NCBI GenBank assembly: GCA_963969365.1
Contig: OZ017757.1
Location: 868,001 to 932,000 of the forward strand
Length of the DNA stretch: 64,000 bases
Direction: 5' to 3'
DNA from: Asterochloris sp. CNOR1
Taxonomy: Eukaryota > Chlorophyta > Trebouxiophyceae > Trebouxiales > Trebouxiaceae
A program made the translations under genes and the position numbers. Under the pieces are notes generated by a model. The model saw only the letters and a list, made by a program, of their open reading frames with translations, ran no database searches and was not told where the DNA came from. Shown here piece after piece: positions 42,101-55,182 of the stretch (positions are counted from its first letter, which is position 1; every line of letters starts with the position of its first letter).

Positions 42101-45100
42101 TGCTCAGAACCCCCCTACTGCTCTGCCTGCAGATGGGAAGATGAGGTGGCGTGTGGGGCATGTGGAAACGCTGCGTCCGAACAGGGAGGAGGATGAATCG
42201 CCCCTTCTTGGGCCCATAATGCCAGGCCAGCACCTGCTCAGCGTAGATGCCTCCATGTTCAGAGCTGCGGCCATTGCCCATGACCCGGCCCCTACAGACT
42301 TCTTGCTGGTCAGAAGGGCCACTGGGGAGATGGCGCTGCGGGAGCTGACGGGGACAGTTGCTGTGGGGCAGCAAGTGCCTCACATGCGGGTACCAGAGCC
42401 TGGCTCTCTTGACTCAAAGTAAGGACGCCAGGGCTGCACTGTGTGATCTATGCGGCGGCCAGTGCTGCACATGGAGGATCAGAGCTGGACTTGGGTGGCT
42501 CAAAGCAAGGAGGCCAGGGCAAGCTGCGGTCTGACTGGCGCAACCTGTGTGGGGCAGGAAGGGGGTCCCCATTTGTTGTGGGTGCTGGCAGTCGAAATGG
42601 CCGGCTTGGAGTGAGCGTGCCAGACTTGCAGTGCCAATCTGACAGAGGCAGTCTCTGTGGGGCAGCTGGTGCCTCACATGGGGGTGCCTGTGCTGGATGT
42701 GGCCGTGACACTGTGCTTGCATGCCAGCCATCCAGGGACGCCAGCCTGTCCTGCATGCACAGACCTGGGCTTGGTTCAAAGCCACTTTGGTGGGCAATGT
42801 GAACTGGGTAGCACAAACCAGTTTGTCAAGGAGGGCAGCTTGTGCAGTCTGCATGCAGCATGCTGTTGCAGGCTAATGCTCTGCCAGTCACTGCTCCCAA
42901 GATTGTGTGATGCTTTGGTCTGCTTGTGTCTGTCCCTACCCATCTTTACGGGTTCACTTCCAGCTTTGCTTGTGCTGAGCTCTGGCTTGCTACTCTGCTT
43001 GTTGCACAGCGAATTCTGACAGGTAGTCACTGGCTCCCCTGCTGTCTGCAGGACCTGTCTGCTGAGCCGCCTGACAGCGTAGGCTCAGCACAAGGTGCTC
43101 TGTGCAGTGGCCTGCACACTTGCAGCCCGCACCCCTCTGCACCCTGAGCTCTGCTCATTCCTGCAGAACCTGCCGCAAAGTCTGCCCGACAGGCCAGGCC
43201 CTGTGCGTCCTGCCGCGTGACAGCACCAATGCCTGCATGCCCCACAAGCCTCAGCAAAACTCAAGTCAATGTATTCTGTGCCTTGAAGGGGCTACTTGGA
43301 GAGCTGCTTGATAGCCCAGGCCCAGCGCATCCTGCGCAAGAAGGAGCTGCAGAACAGCAGGCGAAATGCCAATGCTGTGGGCGTCTCTGACCGTGCCACC
43401 GTCACTGTCAATGAGCTGAAGAAGCTCTTTCCCGCCCTGGGGAAGCAGCTCATTCAGAGCAAGCTGGTCACGGAGTGTGGCTGCGAAAACATCAAGGCAA
43501 GCTGTCAGCAGCCTTCTAACTCTGGCACACATTGCTCAGCGCCTATGACAGAGCACAGCACATCCTTCGGACAACGCAAGCAGAAGCAACTTATTGCTGG
43601 TTACCTTCAATTCACTTGTTGCTAGGAATGTGCTACCTAACCGTTCAGGCACTATGGCAAAGCAACTCTCCTCAGGGGCCCGTATGATATCATAGCAGGC
43701 TGCAGTGATGTGAGCCATGACTGGCATCTTGCAGCAGACTCAGGGTGGGTTCAAAGCTGCAGATCGCCTTGTGCAGGGATCAGCCTGTGCTTTGCTTTCT
43801 TCAGTCCACACAACCTTCCTGCTCAGGGGACCTTTACACTGACAGCAGGTCGTCAGAAGACCCCGCTAGCAGCATGATGAACAGGGCTGTCTCAATAGTG
43901 GTGACATTCAGACTTCACTTGCGCCTCCCTGCAGGAGCCGTGATGGGACGCACATGGCTGCGTCAGCATGTCCACCATCCTCTCACCCGACCCTTGCAGA
44001 GGATTGGGGCAAATCAAAGCCTGCCTGGCCCTTGCAGGGGTCAGATGTCTACCAGCTGCGGGACGATGCCCAGCTGGTCTCTGAGGCAGGGCTGCGCTGC
44101 ATGATCACCCCTGACCAATGGTGTGCCTACTGGAGCATGCTGGCAGGTGGGGCTGCAAGCTTGTATTGCCACCCAAACATCTGTGCAGTGTCTTTTTCTA
44201 TCAGCAAGTGCTGGCGTGGGCCAGTGCCCTTCTGTGGTGCACCAACCTTCAATTATCCCTGGAGTTAGGCTGTGTCCAAGCCTGTTCAAAGTGTGGCTCT
44301 CGGGGAAGAAGGGCAATGCAAGCATAGCTTCATTACATTTGACCTGATGTGCTGAGCGTGACCAGTCCTTCAGCTGGGACTATGTGCAGGGGCTGCTTCT
44401 GTTGCACAGCCTGCCCAGTGTTGCACAGGCTCCCACATTTGCGCTGCAGGACACCACTACCTGCACAAGGTCTGCAAGGTTCCAGAACTAAGGGGCGACG
44501 AGCGCCACGGCGGAGACAAGCCAGCCCTTATCAAGCTGCTGAACACGCCTGAGCGGCTGCAGACTGCCCTGCGGCACTTTCCGGATGAGGTGTGCTGCCC
44601 TGCAGTGTTTTGTGAAGGCAGCAGGGTACCGTTTCAGGGCAGCTGCTACAAGTTTGTTGTGGCTGCTAGTGCTGTTGACAGCCTGACTGCTATGCTGTGG
44701 GCTTACATACTACCCTGCCAGCCACATTGCTGGAGATTTGCTCGTCTATCAAGTTAGCAGCACCAAGTGCCTGACTGTTTGCTGTTCTTTGCAAGCTGAT
44801 GTGGTGTGGCCCTCCGCACCTGCCTTGAACTCAACACTTTGGGCTCTATATCATGAATGTGCTAAACAGCATCTTGCATTCTTCAGCAACTGAAGGAATA
44901 CTGATGAATTGCTGCCCACAAGTCCAGCTGCTGCGACAGACCGCTGTCCACCTTGTGTGGACTCATCTGCAGGTTGCCTTATAGGCCATTCTGCTCAAAC
45001 CGCTGCACAAGATAGCAGACTTGTTGCAGTCCGAGAGCTGGCTGATCTGCAGGAACGGCGCCACGCAGCTGCCGTGCTCCAGCTGCTGTATCAGACCACG

Positions 45101-48100
45101 CCCTGGGCCATCAGCAAGAGCTACATCTCCTACCGCAACAGCCTGAGCACAAACCGCACCCAGAATCTGGTAGCTCTGGAGATGTTTGGCCCAGGAGATC
45201 CCACTGGGAGAGGCCTGGCGTACTCATTTGTCAGGCAGAGGGCCAGGGTGAGTTGGACCTCCCTTCACTGGCCCCTGCTCTGCATTTTGGTGGACCTTGT
45301 GCCACCAGGTGATGCCAGCGGCTTCAACATAGAGGCTTGAGCCTTGGGAGGTGGCCTGGCTGGCCCCTCCTCCTGCACGGCCTTCAAATGTGCGGGCATC
45401 AAACAATGGGCAGACTTCATGCAGAGCTTTGCGCCCATCCTGACAGCCGGTCTCTGGCTGCTGCATATTTTCACATCCAGCGGCCTTTGCACTGCTGATG
45501 CTGGTTGCACACAAAGGCTGTTTGGATGTCCTGGAGCACATGCCCCACACTCCCAGCACAAGCTGACTTGCTGTCTCGGTCATGCAGGAGGAGAAAAAGG
45601 CCAAGGGCAAGAGTGAGGCCAAGCTGACAGGGACCAATGCAGACCTGAGGGCTCTGAAAGTCACTGAGGCCAATGATATGCTGAGGTGTGCAGCTGACAT
45701 TGCTTTGAAGCTGCCTGGGTGGGGTCAAGTGCGACTTGGCAGCAACATGCAGAGTTTCGGAGCTTACTGGCATCAAGCTGCCTGCTTGGCAGAGACTGCA
45801 AGCCCTGAGGTCTGCAGCTCACAGGCGCCCAGCTGCCTGTTGCACCCCAGGGAAGCTTGTGGCACAGTGTCCACCAGGGGCAGTTGTTGCCGGCCTGTCC
45901 TGCTGTTTGGCAATGCTGCAGAGTGAGCGACTGTACGCTGCTGTCCCTTGTGTCTGCTTCTGCCTGCCCACACGCTGGCCCCTGATGTCCAACCATGCAT
46001 GGCTGCAGTCCATAGTGTGGACTATGGCCAGCAGAGAAGGACAATCCTATCTGAGTTGCACTTCACCTCACTTGCTGATGTCACATGGTGGCTGGCCACT
46101 AAGGGGTCCTCAATTCTGTTCAGTAGGCCGGCAGGAGAATGGGCTTGGCTGTTGGGCACACAGGTCCCCCCCTGCACTATAGGACATGATGCCCGCTGGC
46201 CACTGAGGCGGTGCAGGGGGGATGAACAATGCTGTTGAGACCGCCTGCAGGAAGATGGGTGTGGCTGATGGGGACATTCCCGCTGCGCGGTGGGACAAGA
46301 TTGCCCTCATTCGGCGGCTAGCTACCGAGGGTTTCATGGGGGATGACTCTCGCTTTGCACGAGACAAGCGCAGCAACCCTATTGAGGTCCTGAAACACAA
46401 GGATGACAAGTCAGCCATTATCTGGGAGCGCCAGGTGGGCCCAGAGTGTGTTCCCAGTGGTTGTAGCAATGTCAAGCTTTGCAAGCATAAGGCTGATGAC
46501 ACAGTCGTTTCGAGCGCTGCATAGGCTCACCGTGTTGCAAGCCCACCAAGCAGCAGGAAAAATTGGTCAGTGCATATGCTGTGCAGAACTGGGGGCAGCA
46601 AGTGGGCCCCTGCTGGCCTCAGAGGCCCCTGTTTGGCCTGCATCCAAGTGTTTGCTGCTTTGTCCTGCAGCCATGGGCTTCCCGCTGGGCGCCCATCTTG
46701 CACCTTTGAGTGTTCTTGAGCACTTTTCACAAAATGACAGTGTGTAAAATGGTGTAGCAATTCCTGGCTGGAGAGATTGCGAGAGTCTTGCCTGCTGCTT
46801 GCTGCTGGCACCATGATTTGCTGGTACACCTGCGCACAGTGTCATGCATCTCTGCTATACAGGGCGTCAAGCCATGCACAGACCACCTGCCCCTCCTGAT
46901 GCAGCTTGCAGCGCTGAGAACTGTCATGCCTCCCATCTTTGAGGCATCATCAAGCCTGTTGCTTGGGTTGTTGTGCCACTGCTCTGACACTTCTTCTTCT
47001 GCTTGTTGCAGCTTGCAACACTGAAAGGTGTCACGCCTCCTAACATTGATGAAGGCGCTGTGGAGTCAGAGGGGCAGGAGGATCCTGCGCTGGGCCCTGC
47101 CAAGCTGGAGGTGGCTGCCGAGACTGCTGCAGACAAGGTAGGCGGCAACAACTGCGTCTGCAGCAGTTTGCGCTAGGCACGCCTGGCACGAGGTTGCTGC
47201 AATGCCTACTACAGACGAGCTCAGCTGCCTTGTTGCTGGTTCGGTTATGTAGTCCCAGCCACAGGGCGTCTTCAGCAGTCTGCGCCGGGTCCTGCCCGCT
47301 CGAGCTTGCCTCAATGTGCCTGCCATCATCTTCAAGGCATGTCAAAGCCTGCAGCCGAGCAGGAGGCTACCAGCTGTGTCATGCCAGACCTGCTGCTGCC
47401 TTCCATGTTGGCTTAGAGATTAGTCTATGGCTTGCAGCCAAGCTTCAGGCTGCCTGTGGCTCTCATGACTACATCTTCTGGTGCAGCAGCCCTCTGCTGA
47501 GTGACGAGAGGCTGAGTATGCATGACTGCTGTCCCCCACCACGCTGCCTGACAGCTGCATTGCCGCAGGCGCAGGAGCCTCCTGCTAGTTCTGCAGCCAA
47601 GGTAGAGGCTGCAACTGGAGACCCTGGCTGTGGCAGCAGCCAATGCAAGCTGTGCATGCAGACTCTGCACAGGAGAAGTCAGGCCCTTTCGTACTCATGC
47701 AGGAGCCTGCTGGCAAGTCTGCAGCCCAGCTGGACGAGGAGGATGAGGAGGCTTTGGCTGAGATGAGGGAGGAGGGCCTGGCTGAGGCCTCGGCTGAGGA
47801 CAGAGTGAAGGCGGCCAAGACGCGGCCGAAACTGGAGGTGGACCCTGGAACGCGGCGGGTCAGGCGCATCATCACGCTCAATGCGACCAAGGAACCTGCC
47901 GCCCAGCAGACGAGGGAACTGATATTCACTGGAAAGGAGGAGGTGTGTGCTGCATGCTCCGCCCCAGCAGCTGCATCTGCAGCAGGTTAGAAATTTGATA
48001 GTCCCTCCAGACTGGGTGTCAATTCCATGATGCACATCAATCATTGCGGTGAGGGCAATAAAGAAGGTGTGAGAACCAGTGCTCTTTGGCACTCAGACAG

Positions 48101-51100: not shown

Positions 51101-54100
51101 CTGCCTGCAGGCTGGGCACATCTCCAAATTGAATAGGAAGTGCATGCACTACGTGGAGCCTACGCCGCCCCCCCTGCCGACCTACGTGCCCCCTCCTGAG
51201 GGCAGCTTGGTGCCAGCCAGCGCCGCTCTGGGCCTGGGGGGTCCTCCGGCACTTGGTGGGCCCACTATGTCAGCGAGCGCTCTTTTGGGGATGGATGCAG
51301 GTATGGCACCTGGCTGCTGTGGCTGCCATGATGTGACTGCCATGACTTTCAAGCTTGAGTCCTGCTGGGCTAGTCTGCGCTGTTGCCACATGCACGTTCA
51401 GCAAAGCCCGTCAGCATGCAGCTGGTCTGGCCTGAGTGAATTGCCGGGGACCTTGCTACATGTTGGTCCTCCTGCACCTTGTGCGTCAGGTGCCTTTGGA
51501 TGCTACACTGTGCTTTCCGCCACTCTGCAGATGTGCATTCCCTGCTGGCTGGCCCACGAAGTCTGTACACAGGCAGCAGCAAGCAGTGATACTGGTTCAG
51601 TCTTATCAAGGCCTAGCATGCCCTAAGTCATGGCCGTCAGCGGCTAAACCCTGAATGCCGGTGCCAGATCTGGCCTGATGACTGTTCCCTGCAGGTGGCA
51701 TCGCGCCAGCCGGGCAAGCTTTGGGGCTTGACTCCCTGCCAGGCTCCCCAGGGCTGTCATCCCCTGGGAGGGGGAGCCTGGGCACCCCACAGCTGCCGGG
51801 GGCGCGCGGGCGCCACCAAGGGGTGCGGTCACCAGGTGGCCAGGTCAAGCGGGAGGGGCTCAGCAACAGCTCCAGAGGTCCATTGGGCAAGGTGGGCTGC
51901 TGGCCTGCACTGCTGTACAGAATACACATGTCTGGGGCAGCATCACTTCTCAAGGCTTGTGGGTATAGTGGTGTTCCTGAGTTGGCCTGCTGCACAAGCT
52001 GGAGCAATATTATATGCACTGTGGCAAGATTGGCTGTGTCAGATGGGATACGGTGGCTGGTCTGCACTACTGTGCAAGCTCAACACCCGCTGAAGGCGCA
52101 AGGATAGCGGCAGCTCCAGGGTGCAGTCGGCAAGGTGGCTGCTCTGCTGCACGAGCCTGCACAATGCGGTGCAGGGCCCTGTGCCTGCGATGAGATTAGA
52201 ACTGCTGCTGCAGGACAGTTGTGACTGCATGACACATCCCCAGGTGCTACGCTGCACTACTATAAACATTGATATGCAGACTGTGCAGCAACAGAGCTGT
52301 GTTCACGATGCGCCAAGGCCTGGTCTTGGCAGCCCCACTGCCTCTTGGCTGCCTTGCAACACCATCTGGCTGCGTGTTGCCTGTGTTGCTGCCGCCAGTC
52401 CCAAGTGATCACTGGATGCAATACCTGCCTGCTGCAGAGGACAAACAGTGGCTTCAGCCAGGATGATGCTGCCAACAAAAGGATGAAGGTGAACTTGTCC
52501 CGTCTCTGCTGCCTGTAAGAAGGTTCCCTGTCCCAGTCTTTTCTTTTGCGTCTGAGCAAAGCAGACACCGTCACTGCATGCCAAGCAGTGACGTGACTCA
52601 GCCACTGCCACCGCTCGGCCTTGTGGCCCTCTGGCCTTGCTGCCTGCAGCAACACTTCTATTCGTTCCACCTCCATCATCAAGCTTCGCTGTCACAGCAT
52701 TGGCGCTCTGCTTGACCATATCTTTTGCCAGCCCTGCTCTCCATCTCTGCAGCTTAAGCTGTCCAGGAAGGCGGAGGCAGGCGCAGGTGAGCTGCAACAG
52801 TATGGCAGCACTGCTGCTGCTGCCGCCACAGCGGCAGCTGCAGCAGCAGAGCTCATGATGCAGCCACCCCCCCAGCTGGGCGCGGGGCAGGCAGCCAGGA
52901 GCGCGCAGGGACCACCTGGGGGTGCGCCCAGGGCAGGGCCTGGCGTGGCGCGGAAGCACCTGAACACCAAGGTGCTCAGTGGAGTGCTGCGGCAAGTCAA
53001 GAACAACGTCCCCAAGAACTACCTGGCCCCCTTCATGGTGAGCTTGTATGCTGTCGCTGTGACTCTGGTCCCTGCCTCCCATCAATGCTCTGGGAAATTA
53101 AAGTTGTGCTGAAGACCAGCTGCTCCCCAATCTGGTAGTAAGGATGGTGTGCAGCAGCGGCAGGCCTTGTTTCCTTATTCTCAACAGTGCAGCAGAAGGT
53201 CAAGATCAGCATGCCCAAAGAGCAGCTGCATACCTACATGCTGATGTCGTTGTGCTTCACCAGGCACTGCATAGGCGGGTCAACAAAGTAGAGTTGATGG
53301 CTCAGCACCTCATTGGGCAGACAACTGTCCTGCTGGCGCCAAGTGCTGGACTGCCCTCTCATCCTCCAGGCTGCAGAAAATTGCCTCGTACGCACCTGCC
53401 CGTGCCACCTTCCTGCTGCTCGCCCGTGCAGCAGTCAGGGCAACCCCAGCAGGCCGCTGCACCATGCTGATCTGACAATGCACATGCCTGCTGACACCAT
53501 GCCATCTCAGTGAAGTGTTGGCGCTGCAGACGCCTGTCTCACTGAAGCTGATCACTGACTACCATGACTTTGTACCACCTGATAAGGCCATCTGCATTGC
53601 CAACATCCAGAGCAAGGTGGGCCTTTGTGCGTTGCCAGTACTGTGCGGACCGAAGGCATGCATCTCCCAGTGATGCAACCAGGCAGCCTTAGGGGCTGAG
53701 GTGCGTGGAGAGCGTCGTACAGTCTGCGCCAGTGCTGCCTGCACAGCGGCTTGCTGAGTCCTTACCACAGATAGCTGCACGCAAGCTGCACCTGGAACAA
53801 ACAGCAGAGGTTTCACCAGCTGCATGCCTGCACAAGCGTCTCACACGCAAAAATGTTGCTGCAGTTGAAAAGCTCCAAGTATGGAAGTAAGCAGGAATTT
53901 CAGGCAGACTTCCATCAGATGCTGGAGGTCTGCCGGCTATACAACACCGCAGCAAGCCTTGCTGCCCACCCAGGTACAGAGCAAACGACCACAGCCCGCT
54001 GCACCTTGCGTGATGGTGCCACTCTATTTGTTCACTCAGGTACAGGGCACACCGCTCATAGTCACTGCGATGTGCACAATGCTGCTGCCAGCTTGGCTGC

Positions 54101-55182
54101 CCACTCACGTACAAAGCGCACCACCCACAAGCGCTGCACTGCCTTAGCCTCTGCCAAGTGCGTCTCGGCATGTCAGTCTGAAAGCCTTCCATGTGGCACG
54201 CTCCTGCGACATGTGCGTGGAGGCACTCCGCAACTGATAGTCAACTTACCGCTGTTGCAGTGGTGGCAGCGAGCATGATGTTGACTTGTGACCTTCTGCA
54301 GATGTGCTGAGGTTCTGCACACCCTTGAGCATTGCTGCAGCACTCGAGTTGCAGCAGCTGTCCTGCAACTCAACACTGCCGGGCTTCAGGCTTGCTCTGC
54401 AGCACCTGCCCCACAGATGGGCCAAGCCTCCGCCATGGCTCCCTGCCATGCAGATGTGCTGAATTGGCAGTGCCCCTTTGTCTGCAATCACCCAAGCACT
54501 TCTGCCCTACACGTGCTGAGGTTTTGCAAGGAGATTTTGACTGCCTGACTCCTGCAGATGTGCTGAGCATCAGCGAGCTCATTGCCACTATCTGCTCTGC
54601 CCTGCGACGGTGCTCACTACCCGGTGCCTGCTCTACAGATGTATTCAGATTCTGCAAGGAGATTGTGGCCACCTGCGACAAATTTCTGGACCTGTACGCA
54701 GCAGACTTGGCGGAGGCTGAAGCAGCTGTTCAGTTTGAGGAGCAGCAGGTTGCGCAGCAGATTATGCAACTCCCAGGGCAGCCTTCAGGTCATACAAGAA
54801 CCACTGTTGATTGACTCCTCGCTCTGGTCAGGGTGATGGGCAGCCTCCAATCAGAATTGCAATGTCCAGCATGGTTGCTTTGCTTTGCATGCTGCTTTTG
54901 GTGGAAGCGCGCATAGAACAGCCTTGTTGCTCTTTTGAGTACTTTGTCGATGTTCTGGGTGCAGGTATGGTAGTGCTGGGCATGTGTAAAGGACGAGTGT
55001 ATCTGAATGCAGGCGAGGTATGGGTGCAGTGCGACAGATGCCGCAAGTGGCGTCTTGTGACCCCAGCTGTGTACGCGCAAGCAGAACATTTTGACAAGTG
55101 GTATTGTGAGATGAATCCTGACAGGGAAAACCCAACATGTGAGGAGCCTGAAGACAAGGACCCTGCAGCTCAGCCCATTTGA
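33184..55182 (+). CDS. TAF1: TFIID subunit TAF1 with C-terminal CW finger
   Basis: Largest TFIID subunit; scaffold for RNA polymerase II initiation. There are 36 exons, 6108 coding bases, 2035 residues. Exons: 33184-33258, 33406-33462, 33542-33720, 34038-34149, 34516-35077, 35956-36214, 36557-36765, 37108-37230, 37473-37564, 37928-38134, 39228-39474, 39768-39892, 40257-40388, 40723-40854, 41103-41187, 41607-41681, 42133-42418, 43289-43496, 44038-44146, 44450-44589, 45053-45247, 45588-45685, 46251-46434, 47012-47137, 47569-47601, 47673-47942, 48800-49093, 50158-50412, 51111-51300, 51695-51891, 52438-52488, 52753-53037, 53530-53616, 53865-53973, 54639-54788, 55013-55182. Every junction is in phase. 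Domains in order: acidic N-terminus (ALLFGDVDE; EDAIDFEDFDE), the DUF3591 core, a CCHC zinc knuckle, one bromodomain, then a CW zinc finger. Intron 18 has a GC donor (AAG/GCAAGC). Exon 25 may be a duplicated cassette. The first exons and exon 31 are the least certain. Confidence 0.9.
35043..35610 (+). repeat. Higher-order tandem array in TAF1 intron 5
   Basis: The end of TAF1 exon 5 with its donor (ctggcagggctgcagtgg...gcgctg/gtgag) is repeated as a two-part unit of about 178 bp. The A part recurs near 35219 (ctggcagggctgctttgg, again followed by gtgagc) and 35400. The B part (ggcagggctgcagcagagg gtgcatg) recurs near 35131, 35308 and 35497. A short remnant is at about 35591. The copies diverge stepwise and the real splice uses the first donor. 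Confidence 0.75.
35879..35905 (+). repeat. Decayed copy of TAF1 exon-6 start
   Basis: gaaggcatcattgctggtgc at 35879 mirrors gacggcatccatgctggcac at the start of exon 6 (35956), 77 bases upstream within the intron. Confidence 0.5.
37473..46434 (+). other. TAF1: TAF1 DUF3591 core (exons 9-23)
   Basis: This is the conserved centre of TAF1 (about residues 530-1297), which in other eukaryotes packs with TAF7 and contacts promoter DNA. Landmarks in order: HPQMLRWHDD; WLDNVVWEE and LLLDMNDQGLTFEML; ARYNMSKDPYYFPKD; FHRPRSAF; LTAMNGHILLLEFMEERP; GMGVRLTTWYRR; MPGQHLLSVDASMFRA; PTDFLLVRRATGEM; VGQQVPHMRVPEPGS; MITPDQWCAYWSMLAG; LYQTTPWAISKSYISY; ALEMFGPGDPTGRGLAYSF; LTGTNADLRAL; ARWDKIALIRRLATEG. The order matches plant TAF1 closely. 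Confidence 0.9.
46893..46955 (+). repeat. Decayed copy of TAF1 exon-24 start
   Basis: gcagcttgcagcgctgagaa, then ctgtcatgcctcccatctttgagg, parallels the exon-24 acceptor and start (47009 onward: gcagcttgcaacactgaaag, then gtgtcacgcctcctaacattg). It lies about 110 bp upstream in the intron. Confidence 0.6.
50389..51150 (+). other. TAF1: TAF1 zinc knuckle split by an intron
   Basis: Exon 28 ends in TCRDCGQ and exon 29 begins AGHISKLNRKC. Spliced, this gives a CCHC knuckle (C-x2-C-x4-H-x6-C) at about residues 1618-1635, as expected in the TAF1 C-terminal half. It follows a Lys/Gly/Ser-rich basic stretch (about 1555-1610). Confidence 0.85.
53960..54150 (+). repeat. Three copies of the TAF1 exon-34 end and donor
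   Basis: gcccacccaGGTACAGAGCA (the real donor, 53974), gttcactcaGGTACAGGGCA (near 54040) and gcccactcaCGTACAAAGCG (near 54108) recur about 68 bp apart. The third has lost AGGT. They suggest serial duplication of a splice-donor segment. Confidence 0.65.
54290..54680 (+). repeat. Serial copies of the TAF1 exon-35 start
   Basis: The real acceptor and exon start (acagATGTATTCAGATTCTG, 54635) has relatives at about 54298 (gcagatgtgctgaggttctg), 54451 (gcagatgtgctgaattggca), 54513 (cacgtgctgaggttttgcaa) and 54556 (gcagatgtgctgagcatcag). Most keep an AG acceptor. The exon at 54639 is the only one that continues the bromodomain. Confidence 0.7.
55013..55182 (+). other. TAF1: CW-type zinc finger exon fused to TAF1
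   Basis: The terminal exon encodes GEVWVQCDRCRKWRLV, then FDKWYCEMNPDRENPTCEEP. This has the two tryptophans and four cysteines of a CW domain, a fold that in other proteins reads methylated H3K4. It joins the bromodomain exon in phase (CCT TCA G / GC GAG GTA). If intron 54789-55012 is retained, translation stops at 54814 with a short tail (PSGHTRTTVD) and no CW. The intron's donor (CAG/gtcata) is weak, so the junction needs transcript proof. A separate small CW gene is possible but has no good start. Confidence 0.72.

Follow-up and report, generated by a model that had tools for sequence, protein, structure and literature searches.

The window, by which we mean the whole stretch of 64,000 nucleotides that was analysed, lies within contig C12 of a genome that was searched over 56.4 Mb in 21 contigs. 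From approximately 34 to 55.2 kb its + strand carries a gene that we identify, from its predicted protein, as the green-algal gene for the TFIID subunit TAF1, because it contains DUF3591 stretches, because of the score of its spliced bromodomain, and because human TAF1 ranks with the best PDB matches. A profile search of the genome gave 31 chlorophyll a/b-binding matches, and the best PDB matches of one genome exon were chains labelled chlorophyll a-b binding protein or CP26, the leading entries being presumably green-algal, judging by their entry codes. The genome search for DUF3591 showed two matches, both inside the TAF1 gene of the window, namely the top PF12157 match at 42183-42407 and the second and last at 45041-45250, and with the TAF1 exon pieces placed end to end the domain scored 96.7 bits (cut-off 25). 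Between DUF3591 and the bromodomain sits a zinc-knuckle candidate, which scored 16.3 bits against PF00098, under the cut-off of 20.8. The TBP-binding and ubiquitin-like N-terminal regions gave no match in a frame-wise hmmscan of 36.7-55.3 kb, a range that begins downstream of the 34-36.7 kb part of the gene, and Rfam gave no match within the window. The spliced TAF1 model used here comprises the last exons only, was assembled from GT-AG joins, and does not extend to the exons at 43-45 kb. The features are listed below, with a slash marking a junction.

42183..42407, + strand: TAF1 exon stretch with DUF3591 (acetyltransferase region), hmmscan of the X-translated frame, PF12157 profile positions 142-222
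45041..45250, + strand: TAF1 exon stretch with DUF3591, PF12157 profile positions 333-394, 32.8 bits
50395..51143, + strand: TAF1 zinc-knuckle candidate, intron-split (CRDCGQ/AGHISKLNRKC), pattern recognized by eye
52963..53037, + strand: first part of the bromodomain (NTKVLSGVLRQVKNNVPKNYLAPFM), donor GTGAGC after 53037, from the spliced model aligned to human TAF1 and BRD4
53530..53616, + strand: bromodomain exon (TPVSLKLITDYHDFVPPDKAICIANIQSK), from splice candidates and the Pfam bromodomain match on the spliced protein
53865..53973, + strand: bromodomain exon with Tyr-Asn (CRLYNTA), from splice candidates, Pfam and PDB alignment
53974..54638, + strand: intron with decayed copies of neighbouring exon ends, direct repeats D1-D4, 70-85% identity to the reference copy
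54639..54788, + strand: last bromodomain exon (VFRFCKEIVATCDKFLDLYAADLAEAEAAVQ...), 150 nt, phase 1 to phase 1
54789..54964, + strand: proposed last intron, 176 nt (224 nt with acceptor 55013), donor CAG/GTCATA
54812..54814, + strand: in-frame TGA; with the intron retained, TAF1 would end ...GHTRTTVD
54965..55182, + strand: proposed terminal exon, 16 residues beyond the 55013 version, then CW and stop
55018..55158, + strand: CW zinc finger, PF07496 match and residue alignment to MORC3 and ZCWPW2

The bromodomain was spliced from 52753-53037, 53530-53616, 53865-53973 and 54639-54788, and the joined protein scored 41.6 bits with Pfam (cut-off 21.7), compared with 14.8 bits when unspliced. The top PDB matches to the spliced domain are BRD4 and human TAF1, and aligned to both is the Tyr-Asn of CRLYNTA, which we take to be the pair expected to bind acetyl-lysine, with the corresponding role of its Asn. 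As an observation in its own right, the region 53941-54675 holds decayed copies of 64 nt at 70%, 42 nt at 74% and 29 nt at 79% identity, together with three copies of a 20 nt donor region, and the repeats look as if an exon border had been duplicated repeatedly. By eye, one decayed copy has an in-frame acceptor with an exon start at 54558, which could add 27 residues to the exon.

The CW domain adjoins TAF1 on the same strand, approximately 0.2 kb downstream of the last bromodomain exon. The predicted domain, with 47 of 47 positions of PF07496 aligned at 55018-55158 (E 7.2e-14, 57.8 bits, cut-off 27.5), is far above chance, and its open frame closes at the stop at 55180-55182. In the 55-residue exon peptide, the zinc cysteines C6, C9, C31 and C42 (codons starting at 55030, 55039, 55105 and 55138) and the core W29 (codon 55099) are all intact, and W3 and W12 (codons 55021 and 55048) align with the cage pair of MORC3 and ZCWPW2. 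When the peptide was compared with PDB by phmmer, 29 distinct sequences matched at E <=1 (best E 1.5e-8), the top ones being CW domains of MORC3, ZCWPW2 and ASHH2, with MORC3 closest; NCBIfam gave no match for the peptide, and a genome search found no second copy of the region. The first-pass annotation, which had read the end of this gene as a bromodomain followed by a CW domain and had proposed structure prediction as one check, was right about the domains, their strand, their order and their reading phase. The structural check proved only suggestive: with Foldseek, 11 of 18 matches of the predicted model were CW structures, none of them significant (best E 0.26, probability 0.87), and the AlphaFold model, built from an alignment of two sequences, was poor (mean pLDDT 62.7). 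The observation of a complete CW, a bromodomain exon and an in-frame join between them holds, and joining at the RNA level is what we infer from it; the domain observation is solid and, judging by the sequence, the fusion is likely.

The most economical gene model is a fusion of TAF1 and CW in one protein, which we predict with a probability of roughly two in three. According to this model, the last exon (54965-55182 or 55013-55182) would be spliced onto 54788 and would add the CW domain to the C-terminus of TAF1, placing it some 20-40 residues past the EAEAAV stretch, where bromodomain homology ends. The weights that we attach to the various readings overlap, because two of the alternatives considered below, a pair of isoforms and a finger that does not read methyl-lysine, are themselves variants of the fusion.

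Such a finger would be encoded by an exon of TAF1 but would have DNA, protein or unmodified H3 as its ligand in place of methyl-lysine, which we regard as unlikely. There is precedent in the MORC family, in which the CW of MORC2 lacks one cage tryptophan and does not recognize histone, and DNA is also bound by the CW of MORC4, according to PMC7596504. Furthermore, ZCWPW1 and ZCWPW2 have a third aromatic cage residue (PMC9043364), whereas the tail of the TAF1-adjacent CW has no such residue, for instance none like F78 of ZCWPW2. However, both cage tryptophans and all of the zinc ligands are intact here, and the closest PDB match is MORC3, whose CW, according to the entry titles, was solved with H3K4me3. 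Methyl-lysine binding by this CW is putative, the cage residues being what the sequence shows. That CW domains can read H3K4 methylation, as the first-pass annotation had stated, agrees with PMC9043364, in which the cage pair of ASHH2 is W865/W874.

For the evaluation of the join between the bromodomain exon and the CW exon, generic splice weights, under which the last join reached only 2.1 (54965) or 1.3 (55013), below most of the other TAF1 joins listed, were replaced by weight matrices derived from 19 introns of this genome, which lie in Ras and proteasome genes and were fixed by continuity of the Pfam profiles. These genes were used as the reference in order to limit circularity; the TAF1 introns, which had been picked by the generic weights, were scored too but are biased and were kept out of the training. 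Of 20 exon pairs tried for the reference, one had no candidate, and the top-listed candidate was taken for the other 19, of which 18 fit the profile gap exactly; since the candidates were ranked by generic acceptor score, the reference acceptors are slightly favoured. With these matrices, donor 54788 scored 3.75, the best of the eight GT sites in 54640-54811, and in leave-one-out comparison it outscored 2 of the 19 reference donors and was outscored by 17. Its +3 base is C and its +5 base is T, as in 2 and 0, respectively, of the 19 reference donors. Two of the 19 reference introns (loci L056 and L063, both in proteasome genes) have GTCAGC donors, and therefore GTC donors are possibly not rare in this alga. 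The two best of 18 AG sites in 54820-55075 were acceptors 54965 (7.86) and 55013 (7.65), both of which are in phase with the donor. The 54788/54965 pair sums to 11.6, which in leave-one-out comparison exceeds the sums of 6 of the 19 reference introns and falls short of those of the other 13.

Shuffled sequences put these scores into perspective. Among 3000 dinucleotide shuffles, 7.9% reached the score of the 54788/54965 pair, and 87.5% of the shuffled sequences offered some in-phase pair of donor and acceptor; in 2000 further shuffles, 36% contained at least one acceptor scoring at least 7.6. An in-phase join alone is therefore weak evidence, because such a pair is so commonly offered by shuffles, and the p of 0.079 is likewise weak. 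These splice sites could well belong to a real intron but do not prove one.

Joining 54788 to 55013, as the first-pass annotation had proposed, gives ...GQPSG/EVWVQCDRC... in frame, and the phase of that join was confirmed; the acceptor, in contrast, is probably 54965, so that the last exon would be 54965-55182, because coding-like codon usage begins there and because its score is slightly above that of 55013. On a codon log-odds score for which exons of Ras, of proteasome genes and of upstream TAF1 served as the training set, the last bromodomain exon scored +0.11 per codon and the eight read-through codons -0.38; the stretch 54811-54963 scored -0.28 (54th percentile of random open windows), 54967-55014 scored +0.04 (88th percentile), and the CW part scored -0.01 (90th percentile). 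This score separates poorly, as illustrated by the trusted bromodomain exon 53865-53972, which scored -0.00. In addition, the shift in codon usage at 54965 fits an independent start at ATG 54967 equally well.

It could also be proposed that one gene gives two isoforms through part-time use of the weak donor, such that retention of the last intron would give a TAF1 ending in GHTRTTVD and splicing would give TAF1-CW; we consider this rather improbable, and equally so the corollary that the amount of methyl-reading TFIID is regulated at this intron. The low score of donor 54788 beside good acceptors, an in-frame stop codon whose first base is intron position 24, and two in-phase acceptors 48 nt apart are what such an arrangement would look like. 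However, weak donors can be constitutive: the donor candidate of the preceding TAF1 intron scored 3.1, and two of the 19 reference donors were also below 3.75. The sequence TGTAA is a polyadenylation signal in chlorophytes, and one is present at 54985. It was discounted as a sign of intronic polyadenylation, since TGTAA shows no enrichment (241 occurrences on both strands of 263 kb, in which some loci overlap, for an observed/expected ratio of 1.00). TGTAA was found within 900 nt of 9 of the 17 candidate 3' exons of Ras and proteasome genes, many of which seem to end in introns.

The end that TAF1 would have if the intron is kept is plant-like, which counts against the fusion. For comparison, Arabidopsis TAF1 has 1919 residues with the bromodomain at 1806-1901 and ends 18 residues after it, and, unlike the protein proposed for the alga, its domain scheme names no CW in the figure legend of PMC4949998. 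TAF1 could also end at the TGA at 54812-54814 and the CW could be a separate protein of approximately 71 residues starting at ATG 54967, expressed from its own promoter or from a dicistronic mRNA, a reading that we find doubtful. In its favour, ATG 54967 has G at both -3 and +4 and stands at the onset of the codon signal; the open frame of the CW reaches back to 54811, a feature matched by 8.75% of shuffles; and green algae do use bicistronic mRNAs, with a median spacing between ORFs in Chlamydomonas of 183 nt, near the 152 nt that separate the alternative TAF1 stop from ATG 54967, the point at which coding-like sequence begins (PMC11291117, a preprint). According to that preprint, however, ORF 1 of green-algal bicistronic mRNAs is short (medians 357 and 291 nt), and, since ribosomes get to ORF 2 by leaky scanning, the sequence ahead of it is depleted in start codons. 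TAF1 and CW depart from this pattern of a short ORF 1 with few ATGs before ORF 2, since 79 ATGs were counted over 3,719 nt of TAF1 exon pieces (joined, and some of them unverified), with five more between the two ORFs. With respect to a promoter of its own, 152 nt is far less than the median distances of 3415 and 2518 nt between colinear genes in two green algae (PMC11291117), and the 3' end of TAF1, a promoter and a 5' leader would all have to share it. Moreover, the acceptor-like TGCAG just before 54965 would have to be a coincidence. The fusion is therefore favoured, as the space for a separate gene is cramped and TAF1 as ORF 1 is long and rich in ATGs.

If the fusion is correct, acetylated histone tails would be the ligand of the bromodomain and the H3 tail methylated at K4 that of the CW domain, and in this manner TAF1 alone would anchor TFIID on promoter nucleosomes that are both acetylated and H3K4-methylated. 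In animals, TFIID binds H3K4me3 via the PHD finger of TAF3, as the first-pass annotation had stated and in agreement with PMC3770614; animal TAF1 and TAF3 together do the job that is proposed here, the simultaneous engagement of H3K4me3 and H3 acetylation. The difference, according to PMC3770614, is that methyl reading in animals belongs to the separate subunit TAF3, with a tandem bromodomain in TAF1, whereas in the alga the CW would be part of TAF1. Genome searches for Bromo_TP and PHD, by which intron-split domains can be missed, showed no TAF3-like gene, and a CW on TAF1 could take over the methyl-reading role. These searches gave 17 PHD and 5 Bromo_TP matches, with none of the former within 20 kb of any of the latter, and the sole Bromo_TP match above the cut-off is TAF8-like, being followed by a weak TAF8_C match (17.5 bits, cut-off 21). 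The predicted algal protein resembles plant TAF1/HAF1 (Arabidopsis AT1G32750), in which DUF3591 is likewise followed by a single C-terminal bromodomain.

How TFIID recognizes methylated promoters in organisms without the PHD finger of TAF3 is, to our knowledge, an open question, and a TAF1 with its own putative reader of H3K4 methylation would answer it, for one lineage, directly and in a testable form. The fusion, if true, would point to more than one evolutionary origin of methyl reading by TFIID, and would offer a single-polypeptide system in which bivalent acetyl/methyl reading by a general transcription factor can be measured. More speculatively, the weak last intron might serve as a switch between an acetyl-only TAF1, when retained, and a TAF1-CW that anchors at H3K4-methylated promoters, when spliced; we hold this to be improbable, and if true, a switchable two-mark TAF1 would be an independent solution to the task that the PHD finger of TAF3 has in animals, and this in a lineage for which the searches turned up no TAF3-like gene. 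The passages returned by full-text searches of the open-access literature contained no TAF1-CW protein, and nothing was found in the open-access literature on a CW-type zinc finger with a bromodomain in a green alga.

The CW domains of MORC3, ZCWPW2 and ASHH2/SDG8 share with the algal CW the CW signature, the four zinc cysteines and the two cage tryptophans. Their known neighbours are GHKL ATPase, PWWP or AWS-SET domains, not a bromodomain. The genome search for CW gave two further matches, L002 (G000:C1:3829597-3829680) and L003 (G000:C9:2563023-2563103), both of which appear by eye to be cut by an intron after ...QPW. The CW beside TAF1, in contrast, lies in one exon without the ...QPW intron. 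L002 looks ASHH2-like, as it is followed downstream by an AWS match, though a weak one (19.3 bits, cut-off 23.3). A scan of viral contigs for CW, from which records very near the genome of the window may be excluded, gave no match, and a scan of genome contigs gave 17 matching stretches, with two loci confirmed, L012 and L013. The latter (37% identity over residues 4-54, with the common stretch EDKDPAAQP) was taken as a chance match, as its open frame is without the CW cysteines. L012 (8635-10147), on a contig filed as a Verrucomicrobia MAG, does not bear on conservation of the architecture either, its CW following a Myb-like domain, not TAF1. The CW of L012 lies downstream of the Myb-like domain in another frame and is 53% identical to that of the window; the contig is probably a eukaryotic contaminant, perhaps carrying a Myb-CW gene.
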